Below, in pieces: positions 3,341 to 23,022 of a stretch of DNA of 42,564 nucleotides; position 1 is the stretch's first letter, and every line of letters starts with the position of its first letter. The stretch spans positions 1 through 42,564 of the forward strand of contig JANSWS010000018.1 of NCBI GenBank assembly GCA_024743355.1, read 5' to 3'. The DNA comes from a bacterium. GTDB taxonomy: Bacteria; Planctomycetota; Planctomycetia; Pirellulales; Pirellulaceae. The notes under the pieces were generated by a model that was given only the letters and a program-made list of their open reading frames with translations, was not told the origin of the DNA and did no database searches. The position numbers and the translations under genes are program-made.

Positions 3341-4396
3341 ATGGTATCAACTCATGATGAGCAGCCAATCGCCGCCGATGCGATTGACAAGCTGCAGGCC
3401 GCGCGGGAGAGCGTGCTGAGCCAGTTGTCGAAAGTGATCGTGGGGCAGCAGGAGGTTGTCGACGAGTTGCTGATCAGTATCTTCAGTCGTGGCCACTGCA
3501 TGCTCGAAGGTGTGCCGGGTCTGGCCAAGACGCTGATGATTAGTACGCTGGCACGGACTCTGAGTCTGTCGTTCAGCCGCATCCAGTTCACACCGGATCT
3601 GATGCCGGCCGACATCACGGGTACGGAGGTCATTGAAGAGCAACCGGGTGGCGGGCTGCAGCGGAGATTCATGGAAGGGCCCTTGTTTGCCAATGTAATT
3701 CTGGCAGATGAGATCAACCGCACACCGCCGAAGACGCAGGCTGCTTTATTGGAAGCCATGCAGGAGCGGCAGGTTACCGTTGGCCGTGTTCGCCATGAAC
3801 TTAGCGACCCCTTCTTCGTCCTGGCTACTCAGAATCCGATTGAGCAAGAAGGTACTTATCCTTTGCCGGAGGCTCAGCAGGATCGTTTCATGTTCAAGGT
3901 CTTAGTCGACTATCCGTCATTCGACGAGGAATTGGAGGTTGCCCGCCGCACTACATCGCGTGTCGATACCAATGTGGAAGCGATTTTGAGCGGTGAAGAA
4001 ATTCTTCAGTTGCAGGATCTGGTACGCAGCGTTCCCGTGGCTGATCACATCATCCGCTACGCATTGAGTATCGTTCGGCAGACACGCATTGGGACGGAGG
4101 GTGTGCCTGATTTCGTGATGGATCAGATCAGTTGGGGGGCGGGACCGCGGGCCGTCCAGTTTCTGGTCTTAGGCGGTAAGGCGCGAGCTTTGTTAATGGG
4201 CAGAACCCATGTCACCGTGGAGGATATCCAGCATCTATGTCGACCGGTTCTGAGGCACCGCATGGTGGTCACGTTCGCGGCGGAGAGCGATGGGATCACG
4301 ACCGATGATGTCATTGATCGTTTGGTGGCTGAAACTCCTACGACCGAAGATGAATTGAGCCGCGATGCCCGCTTCCAAAAGATTTTTGCCTCCTGA
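3341..4396 (+). CDS. moxR: MoxR-family AAA+ ATPase
   Basis: A 351-residue AAA+ ATPase of the MoxR class, whose members act as chaperones with vWA-domain partners. Visible features are Walker A GVPGLAKT (about residues 57-64), Walker [10 protein letters not shown], sensor-1-like [18 protein letters not shown] followed by DRF, and a C-terminal lid domain ending near [10 protein letters not shown]. Length and motif order are normal. The ATG at 3341 has AGGGAAG close upstream. It opens a six-gene run on one strand; its 3' end overlaps the DUF58 gene by 32 nt, implying translational coupling. MoxR next to DUF58 and vWA genes is the classic arrangement, so the partner is predicted to be the next product. 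Confidence 0.95.
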
Positions 4397-5264
4397 GGCA
4401 GTCAAACGGGTTCAGCGCCTAGAGCTAAAAGCCCGTCACATTGTCGAAGGTTTTTTGTCGGGTTCTCACCGTAGTCCATACTTTGGGCAGTCGGTGGAGT
4501 TCGTGCAGCACCGACAGTATGTTCCCGGCGACGATGTGCGGCACGTAGATTGGAAGGTATGGGCCCGCCAAGACAAGTTGGTGATCAAACAGTATGAAGA
4601 AGACACCAACCTCCGCTGCACGCTTTTGGTGGATAGTTCCGCCAGTATGAGCTATGGCCGGGTAGCTGAAACGAAATTCGAGTACGCATGCACGTTGGCG
4701 GCTTGCTTGGCACTGTTGATTCTCAGACAGCAGGATGCTGTGGGTTGCGTTACCTTCGATAGCAAGATTGTTTCGCGAGTACCCCTGAGAACCAGTCAGC
4801 GTCATCTGACGGATGTGCTGCTGTCGCTAGAAAACTCCACCCCGCAGAACAAGACGGATTTGGGGCCGGTTTTTCGGCAGGTTGTTCAAGCTAGTCCCAA
4901 GCGCGGATTGATGGTGCTGATCAGTGATTTGCTGGGTGCCGAAGAGAGTTCGTTGAAGGGCATCGAAACGCTTCGCAAGGCCGGGCACGACGTGATGGTT
5001 CTGCACGTGTTGGATGATGACGAATTGGATTTTCCGTTTGCGGATCCGACGCGTTTCGACGGCTTGGAGAGCGTGGATCATCTGACCTGCAATCCGCGTT
5101 CACTGCGCGAGGGATACCTCGCGGCATTGGAGCGATTTTTGGATCATATTCGAAGGGCATGCGCGGCCTCCAAGTGTGACTACTTGCTGGTGCGAACCAG
5201 CGATGCCCCCGGAGCCGTGTTGGCCAAAATGTTGAGCGACCGCATGCATGCGGTTCGCAGGTAG
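4365..5264 (+). CDS. DUF58 domain protein, MoxR partner
   Basis: This 299-residue soluble protein has the DUF58 hallmark [17 protein letters not shown] (about residues 53-69) followed by a vWA-like fold with the metal-site motif DSSAS (DxSxS, about residues 92-96). A later [10 protein letters not shown] strand fits the second half of the vWA domain. DUF58 proteins are usually encoded beside MoxR ATPases and are thought to be their clients or adaptors. The ATG at 4365 lies inside the moxR 3' end with no strong ribosome site, consistent with coupled translation. The next gene starts 8 nt after the stop. There is no membrane segment or signal peptide. Confidence 0.92.
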
Positions 5265-5272
5265 GAAGATCT

Positions 5273-7648
5273 GTGCAATTTATCTATCAACCACTGACTT
5301 GGGGATTCTTGTTGGTGGGTGTACCTATCTTGATACACCTGATCAACATGCTCCGCCATCGCCGCCAACGCTGGGCTGCGATGGACTTCTTGCTGGAGAG
5401 TTATCGCCGCAACCGGCGATGGGTTCTGCTCAAGCAGTGGCTGCTGCTTGCCGCGCGGATGCTGGCAATGTTTTTACTGGTCTTGCTCTTGGCCAGTTGG
5501 TTGACGGGCTCGCAGTGGATGAGCTGGGTGGGAGGAAACACCACGCATCACTATGTTTTGCTCGACGATAGCCTGTCGATGGGCGAGGTGGATCAGAACC
5601 AGACTGCCTACGACCGCGGACTGCAAGCCTTGAGCGGATTGATGCGGGCGATTAGTGCTCGCCCAGGCCAGCATCAGGTGACACTCTTGCGATGGAGTCG
5701 CGCACATCTGGCTCTCAAGAATAGTGGCGAGCAAGCGCGGTTGGATGCCGCGGCAGATCTGATGGGGCAGAGCGTGCCGCCCAATCCCGAAAGTCTGCTA
5801 GAACGAATCCAAATCACTCAACCAAGTTCACTGGCAGTTTCGCCCAGCGAGAGTCTAGAACTGGTTGCTCCCCTGGTTGCGGAAAATACGGGGCAGAACG
5901 CTGAGCTCTACGTGGTTTCTGATCTTCGCCGCAATGAGTTTGCCGAGGCTGAAAGTCTGCGAAATCAACTGCAAGCAATTTCGCAGAATGTCGACAAAAT
6001 CCATGTAATTGACTGCGGTCAATCTTCGGGTCGCAATCTGTCGGTCGTTTCCGTGGAGCCAGAACTCGAGGTCTGGGCTGCAGGTGTGCCATTGATTGTT
6101 CGCTTTCAGGTTCGCAATCGTTCCAGTGTTCCGGCCAAGAATGTAGTGGTGGGAATCAGGGCAGTCAGCTACGGCGAAGGGCTGGCCAAACCGCAGGTGG
6201 AGCGAGAGTACTCGGGCGACGTCGTCGACCTGCCTTCGGTTGTCATCGAGCAAATTGCTCCGGGTGAGACCGTTACGCGGCAAATTCAAGTTTTGTTTGG
6301 AGTGCCAGGTGATCACGTGGTCGAGGTCCGTATCGATGACGATGCCCTGCCGGCCGACAACTTGCGATGGTGCAGTATCGAAATAGAAGCTGCTTCGAAG
6401 GTCTTGTTGATCGACGGGGACGTCGAGCAAAGCAATGCTTTCTACTTGCAAAACGTCGTCAGTCCAGGCCCAAGACTGGCGACCGGGATACAAGCAGAGA
6501 GCAAGGATGCATCGTATCTCCGCGATGTACCGGTTGAAGTGCTGCGGGCCTATGATGTGGTAGCTTTGCTAGACGTCCCCCGGCTGGATCCGCAAGCCAT
6601 CACCTCTCTCGAGGCTTTTTGCCGAGACGGCGGCGGCATTTTCCAGATCTGCGGGGCGAACACCAATCTGGAGTTCGCCAACGATTCGCTGTTCCGTGAT
6701 GGAGAAGGTTTTTTTCCGGGCAAATTAGAGCGAATCGTGCAACTCGATGAGGGAGTGGAAGAATCGGAAACAGCAGTGACCGCCAGGCCGCATCCCGTGT
6801 TAGCGCCCTTGTTGATGATGGAGAATTCGCCCTTTTCGCTGCTGAGCATCCGCCGAATGCTGGAGCTTAATGTTCCCGAAGGCGCAAGTGTTGACCTGGT
6901 GGCGAGTGGGCCCGAAGGCATGCCATTATTCGTAGACAATGCATTCGGACAGGGACGCGTGCTTACACTTTTGACCGGCTTGACTCCCGAGTGGTCGAAC
7001 TGGGCACAAGACCCGACCTTCGTCGTTCTCACGCTCCGAGCTTTGGGATATTTGGGCAGCTTTCGTCGGCCAGCAACATCGGCTGCTGCCGGAGAGCCGA
7101 TTGAAATGGTGATGGTTGGGCAGTCGATGCTGCCGGAGGCGGAAGTGCTTTTGCCGGCCATGGCGGATGGTGTGCGGGTGCGATTGCAGCGGCCCATAGA
7201 GGTCTCTGCCGATGAAACGGCATCTTCGCTGAAGCTGGCCATCGATCTGGAGGGAGAGGATCGCGACTTGACCGCCAGCCTGCTCAGACCAGGCGTTTAT
7301 GAGACCTGGATGGTCAACGCTTTGGGGGAAGCGGCGGTCAAGAATCATGCCAGGAATGTTCCGGCCGCCGAGGGCGATTTGGACCGCGTCTCCTACTCCG
7401 AGCTCAAACAAAATCTGCGCGGCGTTCCGATTGAGATCGACACCGCCGAGGCGATCAGCGGCCTGAGTACCAGTTCGCCGGATGCGATTCACAGTACCCT
7501 GCTGATCGTGCTGCTCTTGGGCTTGCTGATGCTCGAGCAAGTGCTGGCATATTCCGCCAGTTACCATGCGACCCCAACGGCAACGCATGTTAGTCACGCG
7601 ACCGCGGGGCACGCTACTCAGGGACGGGGGGCGAAGCAATGGGGTTAG
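5273..7648 (+). CDS. BatA-like membrane protein with vWA-type motif
   Basis: A 791-residue protein whose N-terminus (residues 1-85) is the two-anchor module of BatA-type aerotolerance proteins: a hydrophobic segment VGVPILIHLINMLRHRRQ, a basic linker, then a second span LAMFLLVLLLASWLTG. A vWA-like domain follows with DDSLS (DxSxS) near residue 100. The middle resembles Ig-like and amidotransferase-like folds by sequence texture only. A C-terminal span, STLLIVLLLGLLMLEQVLAY, precedes a short His/Thr-rich tail. Start is GTG at 5273, with AGGAAG 4 nt upstream. It overlaps the next gene by 10 nt. It probably sits in the cytoplasmic membrane with the vWA part as a binding platform. The biochemical role is unknown. 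Confidence 0.85.
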   Translation: MQFIYQPLTWGFLLVGVPILIHLINMLRHRRQRWAAMDFLLESYRRNRRWVLLKQWLLLAARMLAMFLLVLLLASWLTGSQWMSWVGGNTTHHYVLLDDSLSMGEVDQNQTAYDRGLQALSGLMRAISARPGQHQVTLLRWSRAHLALKNSGEQARLDAAADLMGQSVPPNPESLLERIQITQPSSLAVSPSESLELVAPLVAENTGQNAELYVVSDLRRNEFAEAESLRNQLQAISQNVDKIHVIDCGQSSGRNLSVVSVEPELEVWAAGVPLIVRFQVRNRSSVPAKNVVVGIRAVSYGEGLAKPQVEREYSGDVVDLPSVVIEQIAPGETVTRQIQVLFGVPGDHVVEVRIDDDALPADNLRWCSIEIEAASKVLLIDGDVEQSNAFYLQNVVSPGPRLATGIQAESKDASYLRDVPVEVLRAYDVVALLDVPRLDPQAITSLEAFCRDGGGIFQICGANTNLEFANDSLFRDGEGFFPGKLERIVQLDEGVEESETAVTARPHPVLAPLLMMENSPFSLLSIRRMLELNVPEGASVDLVASGPEGMPLFVDNAFGQGRVLTLLTGLTPEWSNWAQDPTFVVLTLRALGYLGSFRRPATSAAAGEPIEMVMVGQSMLPEAEVLLPAMADGVRVRLQRPIEVSADETASSLKLAIDLEGEDRDLTASLLRPGVYETWMVNALGEAAVKNHARNVPAAEGDLDRVSYSELKQNLRGVPIEIDTAEAISGLSTSSPDAIHSTLLIVLLLGLLMLEQVLAYSASYHATPTATHVSHATAGHATQGRGAKQWG

Positions 7649-10419
7649 TGGGCGCTTACCTGGAGTTGGGCTGCACGTTTCCCGTAGCTCAGACCCGCAT
7701 TGTCTACCAATGGTTGCGCTTCGAACAGCTCGATCAGTGGTGGCACTGGTTGTTCTTAGCCCTGCTGGTGGTGGCTGCCCTGGGTTATGTACTGTTCTGG
7801 TATCGCAAAGATTCGCGCGAGCATTTTCGTCCGATTGGTTGGTCGCTGACAATCTGGAGATTGGCGGCCCTGTTCGGTTTGTTGCTGATTTTTTTCCAGC
7901 TGGAACGACGTACGGAGCAAAGAATTGTTCGCGACTCGCGCGTAGCCGTGTTGGTGGATACTTCGATGAGTATGACGCTGGCGGGCACGCCCTCCGCCAT
8001 AGGGCTGCCCAACAGCTTGAGCCGATCCGAAGAAGTCAATCGATTGATAAGTCAAAGCGACTTTCTTGAGAGGCTATCGCAGCAACATCAGGTTAGCGTC
8101 TATCGTTTTGACCAGCTATCTCGCCCGACATCGGTGGCGGCGCTCTCGAAAGTCAGCGATGCAAGTGAAACGGCGGAGGCTGTCGTGAACACGGATGCTC
8201 TGGAATGGGCGCGACTATGGTGCTGGGTGGGCGCTCTTGCGGCTGCGACCGCGATGTTGCTTTTATTGGTCGCTTGGGCGGCCCAGATTTTGGGATTCAA
8301 GGACTGGTACCCTGGAAGCTGGCTGCTTTTCGCCGGTACGCTGCTGGGTGTAGCAGCCTTCGTTCTGGCTGCCCTGGCCTACGTTCCCAATCCGCAGTAT
8401 TCGTGGGCCGTGCTGTTTGGCGCCGATATGCGTCCCAGTCAAGCCACGGAAGCCCAGGAGTCTACTGCGGAAGAGGCTGTCGCTACCTTGCCCGAGGATT
8501 GGGCAGAAGCTCTAGCAGCCAACGGCACGGAAACGCATCTTGGCGATGCTATCAAGTTCGTTTTGGATCGCGAAGCAAGCAATCCGCTGGCTGGTATCGT
8601 CATATTTTCGGATGGCAGAAGTAATGCGGGTGTGGACCCTCGCGAGCTGTTAAGCCTGACTCAAATGGCCAATGTTCCGTTATATGTGGTAGGAGTCGGT
8701 TCCGCACAAAGTCCCAACAACTTGGAATTGGTTGAGATCGATCTGCCGAAAAGATTGTATCCGGGCGATCGGTTTTCAATGTCCGTATTGATCGCTGGCA
8801 GTGGCTTCGCTGGTCAGCAAGTCACCCTGCAGATTTTGGCGGGTGAAAAGGACGCGCCGCTGAGCGAGTTGGGAATTGAAACTGAAGAGCAAGTCTTGAT
8901 TGAAGAAGATGGCGTGGTGACTGGAATCGATTTTCAGTTAGAACCCAAGCCACTCGGTGATTGGCAATATGCCGCCAAGCTGATTGTCCCGGAGGGCGAC
9001 GCGAATGCGGAAGATAATGTGCAGACCGCTGACGTACAGGTGATCGAACGCAAGAATCGTGTTTTGATATTTGCGGGTGGACCGACACGTGAATACCAAT
9101 TTGTTCGAAATCTACTTTACCGGGACCGCGACGTAGAATCGCATGTACTGCTTCAAACCGCTACGGTAGCCAGCTCGCAGGAGGCTCAAGAGATCTTGAG
9201 TGAGTTTCCCGCCGGGCTGCGGGAACTGTCCAATTACGATGCGATTGTGGCGTTTGACGCAGATTGGACGCAGGTACCCGACAGCAGTTTGCAGGCCTTG
9301 GAGCGATGGATCGCCGAACAGGCCGGTGGATTAATCATGATTGCGGGATCGGTCGAGATGCCGAAATGGACCTCACCGTCTGCGGCTGGGGTTCGAGCCG
9401 ACGTTTTGCGCTCCCTGTCTCCGGTGGTTTTGGAACGCCGCGGTAGTGCACTTCTGGCCTCGGGGCGAATCGAATCCGCCAACGCCTGGCCCCTGGAACT
9501 GACCGCGGATGGCCGACAAAGTGAGTTCTTGTGGTTAACCGATGAGCCCAAATCGAGTTTGGAGCTGTGGGGGGATTTTCAGGGCGTCTACAGTTTTTAC
9601 TCCGCTTATGAATTGAAGCCGGGAGCCAAGTCGCTGCTAACTTTCAGTGACCCAACTGCCGCCGTGGACGGGCAACAGCCCGTGTATATGGCCAGCCAAT
9701 ATTATGGGGCTGGACGCACGTTGTTTATTGGAGGCAGTGAATTATGGAGGATTCGAAGTCTGGGAGACGCCTATTTTGATCGACTCTATACTAAGCTCGT
9801 ACGCTGGGTTTCACAGGGGCGTCTTTTGCTGGATTCGGATCGGGGCGTTTTGCTTGCGGACCGCGAACAGGCTCTATTAGGGGACCAAGTGGTTCTACGA
9901 GCCGTACTCAAGGACGAACGTTTCGAACCATTGGTGCAAAGTGAGGTCATTGCCCGTTTGATTGATCCCCAAGGTCTGAATACGCCGCTATCCCTGAGAC
10001 CGCTCGCAGATGGTTCGCAACCTGGTGTGTACACCGGCCAGTTTCCTGTCTTGAAGCCCGGTGAATACACCGCCCAACTGCAATTGGGCGGACTAGGTTC
10101 GGAAGAATTGCTGACCGCCAGCGTGAAAGCTCGAGTTCCTGCGCTTGAGATGCAGCGAGCCGAACGCAACGATTCTCTGCTCAATCAATTGGCGGTCGAG
10201 TCGGGAGGAGCGTATTGGCGCGGTGTGGAGAACGCAACGACGAAAGACGCTGAAAACGCAAGCATCCTGGAAAGTATTCAGCCACAAGACCAAGTAGCCT
10301 ACTTGCCCGGCGCTGCCGATCAGGCATTTCAGTTGCGTTGGCGAGGCTGGCTCATGGCTCTGATTGCTGGTTGTTTGACTCTGGAATGGCTGACGCGAAG
10401 ATTGCATCGTTTGGCGTGA
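7639..10419 (+). CDS. Large membrane vWA protein with amidotransferase-like domain
   Basis: A 926-residue protein. Two membrane segments lie at about residues 36-55 and 71-90, then VAVLVDTSMSM with a DxSxS motif near 106-110. A second pair of spans (about 192-218 and 228-250) interrupts the vWA domain, which resumes with GIVIFSDGRSNAG near 318-330 and a PLYVVGVGS strand. A long extracytoplasmic-looking part follows, including a stretch (NRVLIFAGGPTREYQFVRNL onward) that resembles the class I glutamine amidotransferase-like fold seen in membrane vWA proteins. A last hydrophobic segment ends the protein. The ATG at 7639 overlaps the previous stop by 10 nt. The split vWA domain with an internal membrane hairpin is unusual. 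Function is not assigned. Confidence 0.82.
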   Translation: MGLVGAYLELGCTFPVAQTRIVYQWLRFEQLDQWWHWLFLALLVVAALGYVLFWYRKDSREHFRPIGWSLTIWRLAALFGLLLIFFQLERRTEQRIVRDSRVAVLVDTSMSMTLAGTPSAIGLPNSLSRSEEVNRLISQSDFLERLSQQHQVSVYRFDQLSRPTSVAALSKVSDASETAEAVVNTDALEWARLWCWVGALAAATAMLLLLVAWAAQILGFKDWYPGSWLLFAGTLLGVAAFVLAALAYVPNPQYSWAVLFGADMRPSQATEAQESTAEEAVATLPEDWAEALAANGTETHLGDAIKFVLDREASNPLAGIVIFSDGRSNAGVDPRELLSLTQMANVPLYVVGVGSAQSPNNLELVEIDLPKRLYPGDRFSMSVLIAGSGFAGQQVTLQILAGEKDAPLSELGIETEEQVLIEEDGVVTGIDFQLEPKPLGDWQYAAKLIVPEGDANAEDNVQTADVQVIERKNRVLIFAGGPTREYQFVRNLLYRDRDVESHVLLQTATVASSQEAQEILSEFPAGLRELSNYDAIVAFDADWTQVPDSSLQALERWIAEQAGGLIMIAGSVEMPKWTSPSAAGVRADVLRSLSPVVLERRGSALLASGRIESANAWPLELTADGRQSEFLWLTDEPKSSLELWGDFQGVYSFYSAYELKPGAKSLLTFSDPTAAVDGQQPVYMASQYYGAGRTLFIGGSELWRIRSLGDAYFDRLYTKLVRWVSQGRLLLDSDRGVLLADREQALLGDQVVLRAVLKDERFEPLVQSEVIARLIDPQGLNTPLSLRPLADGSQPGVYTGQFPVLKPGEYTAQLQLGGLGSEELLTASVKARVPALEMQRAERNDSLLNQLAVESGGAYWRGVENATTKDAENASILESIQPQDQVAYLPGAADQAFQLRWRGWLMALIAGCLTLEWLTRRLHRLA

Positions 10420-12823: not shown

Positions 12824-14758
12824 ATGATGAATATCTCACAAACCAAGCGGGAATGTTCTCGGCCCAGCCATATGTGGCTGGCGGCTGCTTTGGTGTTAGT
12901 TGTTTTCGGACGGACAACAGCTGGCTTGCGGGCGCAGGAATCAACCGCCGAAACAGAGTCCGGCTCCGCAGCTTCCCGTCAATTGCCGCTTGCCAAACAA
13001 CAGGAAAGCGTGGCCGAACGATTCCAGCGGCTTGAAGATTTGTTGCTGCAACGATCGGAGATCGAGTCCGTGGACAACCCCACGCGAGCTGCATTGCTGC
13101 AACAAGCGGCGACGCTGGGGAAGAGCGCTCAATTGGCTGAGCTGCTGTCCAAAGCTGCGCAAAGCTTGGAAGGCGAGCAGTATTCTGAAGCCATCGAGCA
13201 ACAGAAGCTAAGCCGTGTCAGTTTGCAAAAGTTGCTCGAGTTGCTGCAGAGCGAGAACCGTCAGGAACGTGTTCGCGAGCAGCGCGATCAGATTCGCCAG
13301 TGGATCGAAGAGGTGGATCGCCTGCGGCGATTGCAGGGCTCGCTGCGCGGTCGAACCGAAGGTGGCCAACAGCTGCAGCAGGCCGCGGAAGACCAGCAGC
13401 GTTTGTCGGATAAGGCGTCGGAAATCCTGGAAGATATCGGAGGCGAAAACGATTCGAGTTCGGAAGCCTCCTCGTCCTCCGCGGCTGACGGCAACAATCA
13501 GGAAAAGGAAGCTTCCCAAACCGACGAAGCTGCCGGAAAGTCCGAGGCGGAGCCAGGAACGGAATCCGAGAGCCCAGATTCAGGATCGGAGCAATCCAAG
13601 CAGGGGGACGCTGAAGCTAAGGACGCTGAGAGTGCTGCGGAAAAGCAAGAGGACCCCTCGGGTAAGTCGGCAGAGAGTGGTGAGCCGACGCAAGGCGAAA
13701 GGGAAGCTGCGGCAGATGCTCCAACGGAAGCCGAACAGTCGGGCCAAGACCAGCAGGGTCAGCAAGGACAACAAGGACAGCAGGGACAGCAGGGACAGCA
13801 GGGACAGCAGGGACAGCAAGGACAGCAAGGGCAGCAAGGGCAGCAAGGACAGCAAGGGCAGCAAGGACAGCAGGAACAGTCGGAGGAAAGCCAAGCCAGC
13901 CAGCCTCAGTCACCTATGGAACGAGCTCGTCAGCGGGTGGAGCAAGCTCGACAAAAGATGCGCGAGGCGCAGCAAGCATTGGACGAAGCAGAGCGCGAGG
14001 GTGCAGTAGAAAAACAACGCCAGGCTGAAGAAGAGCTTCGCGAAGCGATCGAGGAACTCGAGCAGATTTTGCGGCAGCTGCGTGAAGAGGAGATTGAACG
14101 ATCGCTGGCTTCGTTGGAGGAACGTCTGCGGCGGATGTTGGACATGCAAGACAAAGTGCTGCAAGAAACGCAGCGATTGATGGAGATCGCCGGTGAAGGA
14201 AATGCCAACCGTCAGCTGGAGATTCGAGCCAGCAAGCTATCGGTGGAGGAGGCCAAGATTCTGGCAGAGGGTGAGCGTGCCTATCTGCTGCTCCGGGAAG
14301 AAGGCTCCAGTGCCGCATTTCCCGAAGCCATGGAGCAGCTGAACACCGACATTGGCAAGGTTGAAGGTAGGTTACGCGAGGGCAAGGTTGACGAGTTGAC
14401 GTTAACGACGGAGTCCGAGATCGTCAGTTCGTTAGAGGAGATGATCAACGCATTGGTGCAAGTTCAGAAGGAAAATCAGGAGCGAAAGAAGCAGCAACAG
14501 CAGCAAGGTCCGGCTCAGCAAATGCAGAGTGGAGATCAGCCACTGGTGGATCAGTTGGCGGAGCTACGTCTGATTTTGACCCTGCAGACTCGGATTAACA
14601 AAAGGACGGACACTCTTTCTAAAATGTTGGAGGATCCCAGTGACGTTGTGGGGCAGGCTTCAGACCAAGACATCGTGCAAGAGTTGCAGGAACTTTCTGG
14701 GCGTCAGTTCCGAATCTATGAAGTGACGCGCAATGTGCGCGACGCTGCCAAGCAGTAA
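12824..14758 (+). CDS. Exported coiled-coil protein with Gly-Gln-Gln repeat tract
   Basis: A 644-residue protein, last of the MoxR operon. A signal peptide or anchor (about residues 17-37, WLAAALVLVVFG) is followed by helical, Glu/Gln/Leu-rich coiled coil (about 60-210), an acidic Ser/Glu/Asp-rich low-complexity linker (about 210-310), 13 perfect GQQ triplets (312-350), and a second long coiled coil with Arg/Glu-rich heptads (about 365-560). The GQQ tract has Gly-X-Y periodicity like collagen but no proline. AGGA lies 9 nt before the ATG at 12824; a second ATG follows at once. No family was recognised. The predicted shape is a long rod outside the membrane, possibly a scaffold for the preceding proteins. 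Confidence 0.75.
   Translation: MMNISQTKRECSRPSHMWLAAALVLVVFGRTTAGLRAQESTAETESGSAASRQLPLAKQQESVAERFQRLEDLLLQRSEIESVDNPTRAALLQQAATLGKSAQLAELLSKAAQSLEGEQYSEAIEQQKLSRVSLQKLLELLQSENRQERVREQRDQIRQWIEEVDRLRRLQGSLRGRTEGGQQLQQAAEDQQRLSDKASEILEDIGGENDSSSEASSSSAADGNNQEKEASQTDEAAGKSEAEPGTESESPDSGSEQSKQGDAEAKDAESAAEKQEDPSGKSAESGEPTQGEREAAADAPTEAEQSGQDQQGQQGQQGQQGQQGQQGQQGQQGQQGQQGQQGQQGQQGQQEQSEESQASQPQSPMERARQRVEQARQKMREAQQALDEAEREGAVEKQRQAEEELREAIEELEQILRQLREEEIERSLASLEERLRRMLDMQDKVLQETQRLMEIAGEGNANRQLEIRASKLSVEEAKILAEGERAYLLLREEGSSAAFPEAMEQLNTDIGKVEGRLREGKVDELTLTTESEIVSSLEEMINALVQVQKENQERKKQQQQQGPAQQMQSGDQPLVDQLAELRLILTLQTRINKRTDTLSKMLEDPSDVVGQASDQDIVQELQELSGRQFRIYEVTRNVRDAAKQ
13757..13873 (+). repeat. 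13 x 9-bp in-frame tandem repeat encoding (GQQ)13
   Basis: Thirteen consecutive 9-bp units of the form GGN-CAR-CAR fill this stretch. They differ only at third codon positions (GGA/GGG/GGT, CAG/CAA), so the peptide is perfectly conserved while the DNA has drifted. Being a multiple of three, copy-number change would keep the reading frame. Confidence 0.95.
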
Positions 14759-19598: not shown

Positions 19599-22583
19599 TT
19601 AGTTCGATCGCGAACTCTCGGGCGACTCGCCAAAGAGCAGCAACGGCAGGTTCAGCTGGGAAGGCGAGGACTGGTTATAAATGTAAACCGCGTCCAAAGC
19701 CTTCTCGATGCGGGTACTGGCCTCCAGCAGATGAGCTTTGGAGTAAGCGTCTAACGAATCGGCTGATTCCAAGACATCATCGATCGACTTACGCAAGTCC
19801 CCCAGCTCCATGATGCATAGATTGGAGATTGCCTTGTAGGCCGCGGAGGATCCATTGCCGGGCAAGGTCAGGTCAATCAGTCTTTCCAGATGCTCTCTCT
19901 GAAGATTGCGCCTCAGGCTGGAAATCATCGGCTCCCGCGCCGAATATTCGCCGTCGAGATCCTCGTCCAATTCGCTCCAGATCTCAGCGGTTATCGAATC
20001 GAGCAACTCAGGCAAAGTGAATGCATCTTGATCCTTGGGGGTGCGGAATTCATTGTCGTAAACCCGGCGCAGAGTTGTGGCATTCATCAATTGAGTCAAA
20101 GCCGAACTTTGCATGGAGAGTATCCGATCGTGAACGGGCCAGGCCGGATCTCCTCCAAAGCCTCCGAAAAAGTCCTTGGTCAGCCGAGCCAGTAATTCCG
20201 GCGACAGTGCGTAAGCATCATCTCGGAAGGTCGATTCGAGAACAAAGTCGAGTGCTTCGCGTTGGGTTTCTGCCGGAACCACCTCGATGGGCAGCCGCTC
20301 CTTAGGATCACCCTTCTTGTCGCGATTGACGAACGCACCGCCGATCCAATTGGACATCATGCTGGTGTTCTTCATTTGCAGGTTGAGAGTTAACTCGTAG
20401 CCCTCGCGTGCCTTGGTCCAGCTATCACCGTCCTTTACATAGTCGGTCATTAGCTTCTTGCGGAACCGTTCAATAAGAACCTTTTGTTCCAGTGCATATT
20501 CCAGCGGATTCTTGCTGAAGTCATAGCGGCGAGCCAGGGGATCCGGACCGATCGTGTCCTCGTCGGTTGCGAACTGCAGTTCCGGTTCACTGACGCGTTC
20601 AAGGATCTTCTCGGGATTCTTGTCGAAGGTGTAACCGAACTCGATGGCCCACATGTCGTAGGGTCCGACTTCGATCATAGCGAAATCGCCTTGGACTTCG
20701 CCGGTTTCCAGACGCAGGTTGACGGGCAGGTAGTCCATCACCGAGCCGGCAAAGGCCTTGTTGCCCTTGATTTCTTCACTGTTGATCTCATCCAGAGTGT
20801 AGACGGCACTGGCCTTAAAGTTGTGACGCAGACCAAGTGTGTGTCCAACTTCGTGAGCGACCAGGTCGGCTAGCAGCGGTCCGATGAAGGATTCAGGCAT
20901 GCCATCGATAACAGGCTCTTTGGGCTTGCTGCTCTCCTTCTTGTCCTCTGCTTTGGCCTCTTTTTCTTCTTCGTCATCTCCAGCTTCGGAGTCGTCTTTC
21001 TCATCATCTTCATCTTTATCGTCGTCATCATCGGATTTCTTCTCGTCCGATTCTTCCTCGTCCTCTTCTTCGTCGTCGTCCTTGCTCTTCTTCTTTTTCT
21101 TCTTGCCTTTTTCGTCGTCATCTTCGGCAAGGATGGCTTCCGGCCCCATTGCCAAGATCATGCGCATGACGGAGGTGTCTATCTGTCGCCCGGTAGCGGC
21201 CAAACACATGCCGTTGACCTGACTAGTGCGGCCCACGAGTCCATCGAACAAGTCGTCACCGAGCAATTCCGTTTTGGGTTGTGCGGCATCGAAACCCGCA
21301 TACGGACTGGTCAGCTGCGAGCGGATTTTGGCGGCAATGTGCTGGCGCTGGCTGGGTTCGGCAAATCGAATCCGAGGATCCCAATTGGGATGTTCTGCCA
21401 GCCAAGCGATTGCTTCGGCGCTCATTCCCTCCATGGCAATCAGTGGCATATAGTCCGAGAAGCTCTCGTTGAAATAGCGGATCCAACCGTCTGTCAGCAC
21501 GATATCGGCATCCAGAATCTGCCCGGTCTCGGGATGCACCCGCGAAGGCCCAATGGCGGTTGAAATGTTGTTGTTGAGCCAGCGAATAAAGTTGTAACGC
21601 ACATCCTCCGGATCCTTGTCCATGTGGGCACCGGTAGCTTTGTCTTGGTAGTAAACCACGATCGCATCGGAAATTCCCACGTTTTCAAAAGCGCGATTCC
21701 AATACTCAACGCCAGCCTTAACCCAGCGTCGATAGCGTACCGGAGTCGTATGTTCCAGGTAGAAAATGATCGGCTCTTCGGGTGGCGAAACGGCCAGTGA
21801 AGGGTCGCGCTTTTTCAGATGCCAGCGGTTGATGTAGTTAACGTCAACTTCGTCGTCTTTGTACTTGCCGTAGTCGGAGTACGAGGTGGTGAAGTAGCCA
21901 ATTCGCTGGTCCGCTTTCCGCGGAGAGTAGCCGGTGTTGGCTGGAATTTCGCTGATCGAGTAATACAACGTCTGCAAGTTGCCTGCCGCATTGGGCATTT
22001 CAAATGCCAACTCGATATTGTTCGGGAAGGCCTTCGATTTAACGATCTTGGCTAGCGCGGGGTTCTTGCTCCGTCCGTCCGCACCAAAGAACACGGATGC
22101 ATTGCTCACCAACAGTGCGTCGCCATCAATGACCGGACCGCCGCGGGGCGACATGGTGATGATGGGCAAATCGACTAGCACTCGTCCGGTGAACAAGCGA
22201 TTGACCGAGTCTTTCGATTCGTTGTCGCCTCCCGACCGAATTCGCATGTTGGGTTCGATCAACGCCAGACGATTGTTGTACTGCCGCCATTCAACGTAAT
22301 AGTCCCCGGCCTGCAAGCCGGCGAACTGTTGGCCACTGGCAACCGTCAATCCGATAAAGTACTTCTTGGTGCCATAGTTTTTAGGCAGTTCGAATAGCAG
22401 TTGCCCCTCATTTTCCTTGATGTAAACCGTGTACATCGTGGCGGAAGCATCGGCGGGGGGATCAATCTTGGTGTAACCCTCGACAACCTTGTCAAAGGGT
22501 GGAAAATCGGCACCTAACACGGTCCCTGCACTGCCCAACATTAGCGTGGTTAGGCACACGATTGCCATAGATCGAAATGACAT
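19599..22583 (-). CDS. Exported zinc-dependent metalloprotease (DUF5117/DUF4953-like) with acidic insert
   Basis: A 994-residue protein. A signal peptide (residues 1-25, MAIVCLTTLMLGSAGTVLG) leads to an N-terminal domain of the DUF5117 type, then a metzincin-like catalytic part with HEVGHTLGLRH at 577-587, the extended zinc site HExxHxxGxxH, followed by a downstream VMDYLP turn like the metzincin Met-turn. Between the two lies a low-complexity insert (about 486-553) made almost only of Lys, Asp and Glu, with six lysines in a row then acidic runs. Start is placed at the ATG at 22583, ahead of the signal peptide, with GAGGA 11 nt upstream; the frame opens 15 codons earlier. Likely periplasmic or extracellular; substrates unknown. 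Confidence 0.88.
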   Translation of the reverse strand: MSFRSMAIVCLTTLMLGSAGTVLGADFPPFDKVVEGYTKIDPPADASATMYTVYIKENEGQLLFELPKNYGTKKYFIGLTVASGQQFAGLQAGDYYVEWRQYNNRLALIEPNMRIRSGGDNESKDSVNRLFTGRVLVDLPIITMSPRGGPVIDGDALLVSNASVFFGADGRSKNPALAKIVKSKAFPNNIELAFEMPNAAGNLQTLYYSISEIPANTGYSPRKADQRIGYFTTSYSDYGKYKDDEVDVNYINRWHLKKRDPSLAVSPPEEPIIFYLEHTTPVRYRRWVKAGVEYWNRAFENVGISDAIVVYYQDKATGAHMDKDPEDVRYNFIRWLNNNISTAIGPSRVHPETGQILDADIVLTDGWIRYFNESFSDYMPLIAMEGMSAEAIAWLAEHPNWDPRIRFAEPSQRQHIAAKIRSQLTSPYAGFDAAQPKTELLGDDLFDGLVGRTSQVNGMCLAATGRQIDTSVMRMILAMGPEAILAEDDDEKGKKKKKKSKDDDEEEDEEESDEKKSDDDDDKDEDDEKDDSEAGDDEEEKEAKAEDKKESSKPKEPVIDGMPESFIGPLLADLVAHEVGHTLGLRHNFKASAVYTLDEINSEEIKGNKAFAGSVMDYLPVNLRLETGEVQGDFAMIEVGPYDMWAIEFGYTFDKNPEKILERVSEPELQFATDEDTIGPDPLARRYDFSKNPLEYALEQKVLIERFRKKLMTDYVKDGDSWTKAREGYELTLNLQMKNTSMMSNWIGGAFVNRDKKGDPKERLPIEVVPAETQREALDFVLESTFRDDAYALSPELLARLTKDFFGGFGGDPAWPVHDRILSMQSSALTQLMNATTLRRVYDNEFRTPKDQDAFTLPELLDSITAEIWSELDEDLDGEYSAREPMISSLRRNLQREHLERLIDLTLPGNGSSAAYKAISNLCIMELGDLRKSIDDVLESADSLDAYSKAHLLEASTRIEKALDAVYIYNQSSPSQLNLPLLLFGESPESSRSN

Positions 22584-22692
22584 GAACAAACAATCCTCAT
22601 TGGAGCCTTGTTGAAAAACGATTCTCAATGGTCACATCGCTGAGAATTTCGCACTTACGTTTCTTAGCTCGAAGCTCGCCTGGCGGTACCCC

Positions 22693-22933: not shown

Positions 22934-23022
22934 CGTCCACCGTCTGGCGACGGTGGCTACGATGCGTCCACTGTCTGGCGAGGGTGGCTGCGATGCGTCC
23001 ACTGTCTGGTGTTGGTGGCTAC
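22934..23022. repeat. Three-copy 31-bp-period repeat with internal hairpins
   Basis: Units begin at 22934, 22965 and 22996 with the core CGTCCAYYGTCTGG, each followed by a GGTGGCT block; a degenerate fourth copy precedes them at 22909-22932. In unit one CCACCGTC (22937-22944) and GACGGTGG (22949-22956) form a perfect 8-bp hairpin with loop TGGC. Units two and three keep most of the stem through G-U pairs when read as plus-strand RNA. There are too few units and no cas genes, so this is not CRISPR. Confidence 0.7.

Follow-up and report, generated by a model that had tools for sequence, protein, structure and literature searches.

A lineage-specific tandem repeat in the predicted disordered linker of a probably exported planctomycete protein encoded beside MoxR and VWA genes

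A perfect (Gly-Gln-Gln)13 tract encoded by a planctomycete of the Pirellulaceae is probably the current, lineage-specific filling of a disordered tether that joins two helical domains of a likely exported protein, here termed P1, which by gene order would work with a second protein, P2, and with MoxR, DUF58, BatA and VWA proteins. The window, that is the whole stretch of DNA that was analysed, comprises 42,564 nucleotides (contig JANSWS010000018.1 of assembly GCA_024743355.1). The tract lies between conserved domains, its sequence changes across species, the composition and polarity of the linker around it are steadier, and fused relatives are without the long linker. Tandem repeats within disordered linkers are of an ordinary kind; the most interesting part is found outside the tract, in one linker position that carries a different repeat in many lineages, with polarity kept, in an uncharacterised P1/P2 pair.

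Results

Units and codons of the tract

The tract occupies positions 13757..13873 of the forward strand (117 bases, 39 codons; residues 312-350 of P1) and is flanked by ...EAEQSGQDQQ upstream and EQSEESQASQ... downstream. Its 13 units are of five kinds, GGACAGCAG (five copies), GGACAGCAA (three), GGGCAGCAA (three), GGACAACAA (one) and GGTCAGCAA (one), and all the DNA differences among them fall at the third codon position, with no amino-acid changes. An earlier note made from the sequence had described a perfect repeat of 13 copies with wobble-only differences, and both this description and its coordinates are exact. The tract is not a chance arrangement: among the three repeats reported by Tandem Repeats Finder in the window, it is called with a period of 9 bases, 13.6 copies and 91% matches.

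The note had attributed the wobble differences to silent drift, which is an incomplete account as the codon bias points to recent ancestry of the units. The Gly codons comprise nine GGA, three GGG, one GGT and no GGC, yet GGC is the top Gly codon nearby (125 of 356 in nine neighbouring ORFs). Identical neighbours make up five of the 12 adjacent pairs, a figure matched by only 203 of 200,000 draws from local codon usage, and it is thus probable that the units share recent ancestry; as few as five unit kinds were matched in 563 of 200,000 such draws. Shuffling the order of the tract's own units reached five of 12 identical neighbours in 12,184 of 200,000 cases (2,967 of 50,000 in a repeat run). 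Such shuffling is indecisive, suggesting that unit order in the window array is by itself no proof of duplication. As the order test is not significant, the case for duplication in this array rests on codon content and on the relatives, and the process is here suggested but not proven.

Whole-unit duplication is plain in the GQQ arrays of two relatives. In the array of L008, 19 units are arranged in blocks with 13 of 18 neighbours identical, and in that of L030, which has 32 units and an 18-base rhythm, 16 of 30 comparisons two units apart are identical; neither value was reached in 50,000 order shuffles. The order-shuffle test gave no duplication signal in L060 (nine units), one of the four arrays tested. 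It should be emphasized that each species is represented by a single genome, in many cases a draft, and that copy numbers drawn from short-read assemblies may be off. The commonest unit also varies between arrays: the window array has GGACAGCAG, L008 has GGTCAACAA, and L030 has GGACAGCAA with GGGCAACAA. The note had set selection on the peptide against recent slippage, a choice that falls away: the two are no alternatives, and L008 and L030 display the patterns of duplication. On/off switching through slippage was set aside, because a 9-base unit preserves the reading frame.

Domain structure of P1

The P1 gene (12824..14758, forward strand) encodes 644 amino acids, comprising an N-terminal hydrophobic helix, a helical domain, a linker predicted to be disordered and a further helical domain. 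The hydrophobic stretch at the start, with a helix at residues 15-33, is read as a putative signal sequence, and P1 is probably exported. In a single-chain model built from 53 aligned sequences the helices span residues 56-214 (12989..13465) and 364-643 (13913..14752), with pLDDT mostly above 83 (83-98 in most domain blocks). Residues 215-363 (13466..13912) contain neither helix nor strand and constitute the predicted disordered linker, with a block pLDDT of 38-48 over residues 211-350, although such low values may also reflect an alignment without signal in this region. An acidic part of the linker is followed by a Gln-rich part that includes the tract. The sequence and the model agree with three proposals of the earlier note, namely that an acidic stretch adjoins the tract (28% D+E over residues 210-305), that helical parts lie on both sides of it, and that it belongs to a flexible spacer, here predicted disorder between two helical domains. 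Inside the C-terminal domain there is a short Gln-rich loop of lower pLDDT (the QQQQQGPAQQMQSGDQP region; window 14504-14551, P1 residues 561-576), and Gln is also present at this loop in the consensus of the relatives. No solved structure was matched in sequence searches, in which the lowest E was 0.044 with A1, for P1, and 0.029 with A2, and a fold search with P1 gave nothing at E <= 0.001.

The gene cluster and the predicted partner P2

The P1 gene closes a run of six tightly spaced forward-strand genes, and is preceded by those for a MoxR-type AAA ATPase (3341..4396), a DUF58 protein (4365..5264), a BatA N-terminal (two_anch) membrane protein (5273..7648), a VWA-domain protein (7639..10419) and P2 (10428..12812; 794 amino acids). 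The spacings, in order, are -32, 8, -10, 8 and 11 bases. P2, the predicted partner of P1 by gene order, is modelled with membrane helices at the N terminus, then beta-sandwich domains, and long helices at the C terminus, and the best matches in a fold search were domains of generic Ig and fibronectin type. A P2 match was present in 39 genomes, and in 38 of these the gene adjoins P1 on the same strand; in the other, G012, P1 and P2 occupy separate contigs. Neither protein matched a Bat family or was named by any of the Pfam or NCBIfam models used, and among the literature matches listed no title was about P1. Our best guess is that P1 and P2 are envelope accessory proteins of the MoxR/VWA machine.

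Fused relatives resembling DUF4175 proteins

Four long proteins (L063-L066) of the same order as the source appear to be fused counterparts of the pair. In pairwise profile comparisons P2 aligns to positions 38-776 of the fused (A3) profile (E 7.6e-53) and P1 to positions 783-1222 (E 7.3e-28), and by these alignments P2 (10428..) and P1 (..14758) are jointly collinear with a single fused protein. The N- and C-terminal parts of P1 overlap or sit six residues apart in L063-L066, and the long linker is thus missing in all four fused relatives examined, which have a 23-31-residue Ala/Gly/Gln-rich stretch near the junction. In one of them (L066:229-3825) three DQGQA copies occur near the P1-linker point, possibly a seed-like short repeat.

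Three of the four proteins gave weak matches to DUF4175 (PF13779), at 21.2-24.3 bits and thus under the cut-off of 27.3; neither P1 nor P2 exceeded this cut-off, and nor did any protein of the source genome. Three weak DUF4175 matches below the cut-off are present in that genome, at a loose E-value at which eight of 14 control genomes also match, and none of the three, the largest of which was read in part, matched the P1, P2 or fused profiles. The fused proteins resemble P2 plus P1 in their collinear alignment and in coming from the same order, but they are one protein rather than two, are without the long linker between the helical parts and remain under the Pfam cut-off. The comparison suggests that P2 and P1 each correspond to one half of a DUF4175-like protein, and that this protein is associated with MoxR/VWA clusters. 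Two leads, given that no DUF4175 cut-off was reached here, come from excerpts of published work: AdvA of Acinetobacter, a DUF4175-domain protein, is described as a critical cell-division protein (PMC7481262), and a TIGR02302 protein of Rhodobacter occurs in a CenR data set (PMC9275681).

The linker changes between species

P1 was matched in 57 of the 60 genomes searched. These matches, together with two MAGs (Planctomycetaceae bacterium and Pirellulaceae bacterium), gave 62 rows, the window included, some of which are incomplete or represent a second copy in the same genome; 54 were handled as full length. Across the latter, mean identity to the window was 0.39 in the N-terminal domain (residues 55-205), 0.49 in the C-terminal domain (residues 366-560) and 0.20 in the linker, where the figure means little as the sequence is of low complexity. 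On alignment, the flanking helical domains are conserved and the linker between them is not. Linker length ranged from 66 to 284 residues, with a median of 145, in 53 of the full-length rows, and was 25 residues in the remaining row, L057.

In most lineages the linker contains a repeat of its own, such as PSDSK (L004), EPKDG (L026), GDSK/GDSE (L038 and L052), GEGQQ (L053 and L054), GQ (L039) and GDPKG (L056). The unit lengths found elsewhere at the place of the tract include five, four, six and eight residues. Runs of at least three GQQ units are present in eight of 62 rows and, among rows of the same genus with a readable linker, in two of 13, the window included; this count leaves out G007, in which the P1 copy stops at a contig end, and G014, which had no match. 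The six carriers of such runs need six changes on a 55-row tree, a quick construction with the linker columns removed in which 15 of 52 inner branches are open and the rows L056 and L057 are long. The earlier note held that homologues in which the tract is randomly replaced or lost would identify neutral low-complexity sequence. Replacement and loss are indeed what is observed for the GQQ sequence, but they do not extend to the composition of the linker.

Composition, polarity and unit peptide

Hydrophobic residues (VILMFWYC) make up a mean of 1.5% of the linker, with a maximum of 7% (59 rows). Full-length linkers with 60 or more residues numbered 53; the last 40% contained more Gln than the first 40% in 49 of them, and the first 40% more acidic residues than the last, again in 49; 50 of the 53 are net negative. 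There was no clear sign that length and composition compensate for each other: among six uncorrected correlations, length increased with Ser (rho 0.36, p 0.007) and with charged fraction (rho 0.31, p 0.026), and the remaining four were weaker.

Arrays were picked on DNA, since picking on peptide identity favours low pN/pS, and only periods divisible by three were kept (L050 and L051 also showed a 14-base period). An array with a period of 3n bases was found in 51 of the 62 rows, the other 11 having no array. These 51 arrays contained 502.5 silent versus 226.5 amino-acid differences (pS 0.432, pN 0.050, pN/pS 0.116), although neighbour comparisons within an array are dependent. In 46 arrays pN was lower than pS; of the remaining five, L015, L028, L049 and L050 had zero differences and L017 one amino-acid change with no silent one. 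As a neutral control, arrays were built from the same units, mutated regardless of the peptide and detected in the same way. The simulations gave pN/pS of 0.70-0.93 at a transition weight of 1 and 0.55-0.81 at a weight of 3 (ten runs each), with the proviso that simulated units diverge separately and those of real arrays perhaps do not. The perfect GQQ runs of 13, 19 and 32 units show no change, but were chosen as perfect runs. The gap between 0.116 and the neutral 0.55-0.93 supports the view that the peptide of the current unit is held against substitution, though the unit itself is replaced over longer times. Selection on the peptide, as the earlier note proposed from the 13 units without an amino-acid change, is also supported by the arrays of the family.

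It could be argued that slippage has simply filled a spot tolerant of insertions, with nothing selected other than the reading frame. The variation of linker sequence, unit and length by species, GQQ runs that come and go at a cost of one change per carrier, and the missing long linker in the fused relatives would all fit such a neutral origin. We consider it unlikely, however, in view of a pN/pS well below every neutral simulation, the retention of composition and polarity in 49 of the 53 linkers, and a linker length of 66 residues or more in 53 of 54 full-length rows.

A different possibility is that GQQ itself forms a specific strip that binds a partner or a glycan or self-associates through Gln. 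The perfect peptide despite varied codons and the repeated origin of GQQ runs are in keeping with this proposal, as is the finding that Gln accounts for 25% of the final 30 residues of the linker compared with 13% of its whole length. Few rows contain such runs, however, even within the genus (see above), and many relatives are without any Gln repeat, which renders a GQQ-specific strip, judged on these sequences, very unlikely. From the earlier note's polar interaction strip, what survives is the Gln-rich part beside the second domain, which is conserved; GQQ as such is not.

In collagen-like repeats the X and Y positions are rich in proline. That the tract forms a collagen-like triple helix trimerising P1 is scarcely credible and was rejected as a function of the family: despite Gly at every third position through 13 units, a Pfam Collagen (PF01391) score of 28.8 bits, barely over the cut-off of 27.2, and weak matches to collagen-like adhesin models far under their cut-offs, there is no Pro in the 39 tract residues, a lack that the earlier note had rightly remarked on, in-register Gly-X-Y runs are rare (at least ten units in three of 62 rows, at least five in seven), and the likeness to collagen drawn in the note is lost in relatives, whose units have other lengths.

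Discussion

The reading we favour, a tether between two helical domains, would operate as follows. The tether would grow and shrink as whole units, each 3n bases long, are duplicated, such that the frame is never shifted, and amino-acid changes within units would mostly be purged. Selection would maintain the length, solubility and net acidic charge of a chain that becomes rich in Gln beside the second domain, and this chain may let the two helical domains move apart outside the cytoplasm. Counting against the tether, the basic fold of the fused relatives does without a long linker, the linker of L057 is short, at 25 residues, and the constraint on the unit peptide exceeds what would be expected if any polar residue were acceptable.

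A broader proposal, which we regard as doubtful, is that in planctomycetes a DUF4175-like envelope protein exists as two separate chains, the second of which contains, at a constant position, a tether generated from repeats. The sequence of the tether would be renewed in each lineage, selection acting on its polarity (acidic, then Gln-rich) and on the unit peptide, and this self-renewing, length-tunable element would set the reach of the MoxR/VWA machine outside the cytoplasm.

The linker of bacterial SSB offers a parallel. In the sections of one study that bear on it, this linker is reported to be poorly conserved and to vary from 16 to 126 residues with similar compositions, and to be rich in Gly and Pro with few charged residues (PMC7145534). 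The P1 linker is alike in that sequence and length vary around a similar composition. In contrast with the SSB linker, which has few charges and, in a cytoplasmic protein, is followed by an acidic tip, it is net acidic and lies between helical domains of a protein that is probably exported. Similarly, the cluster resembles Bat (Bacteroides aerotolerance)/MoxR-VWA clusters in having consecutive genes for MoxR, DUF58, BatA N-terminal and VWA proteins, but differs in P2 and P1, which fit no Bat family among the models used. Deletion of the bat genes in Leptospira biflexa reportedly left growth, morphology and oxidative-stress tolerance unaltered (PMC3557215).

Tandem repeats in proteins are reported to arise mostly by duplication and to be sited in disordered regions (PMC7230257). 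The P1 linker conforms to this pattern and differs in that one orthologous linker is refilled by lineage-specific units. It thus provides a clean case in which a disordered linker would stay functional as its sequence turns over, silent changes being tolerated and amino-acid changes mostly not. The natural linkers also constitute a ready series for asking which property, length, charge or Gln content, a tether needs.

Two further tandem repeats occur in the window. One, with a 31-base period, 2.9 copies and 87% matches, lies at 22934-23022, just past the end of a minus-strand ORF (19599-22628), and the other, with a 15-base period and 2.8 copies, is located within that ORF at 21037-21077.
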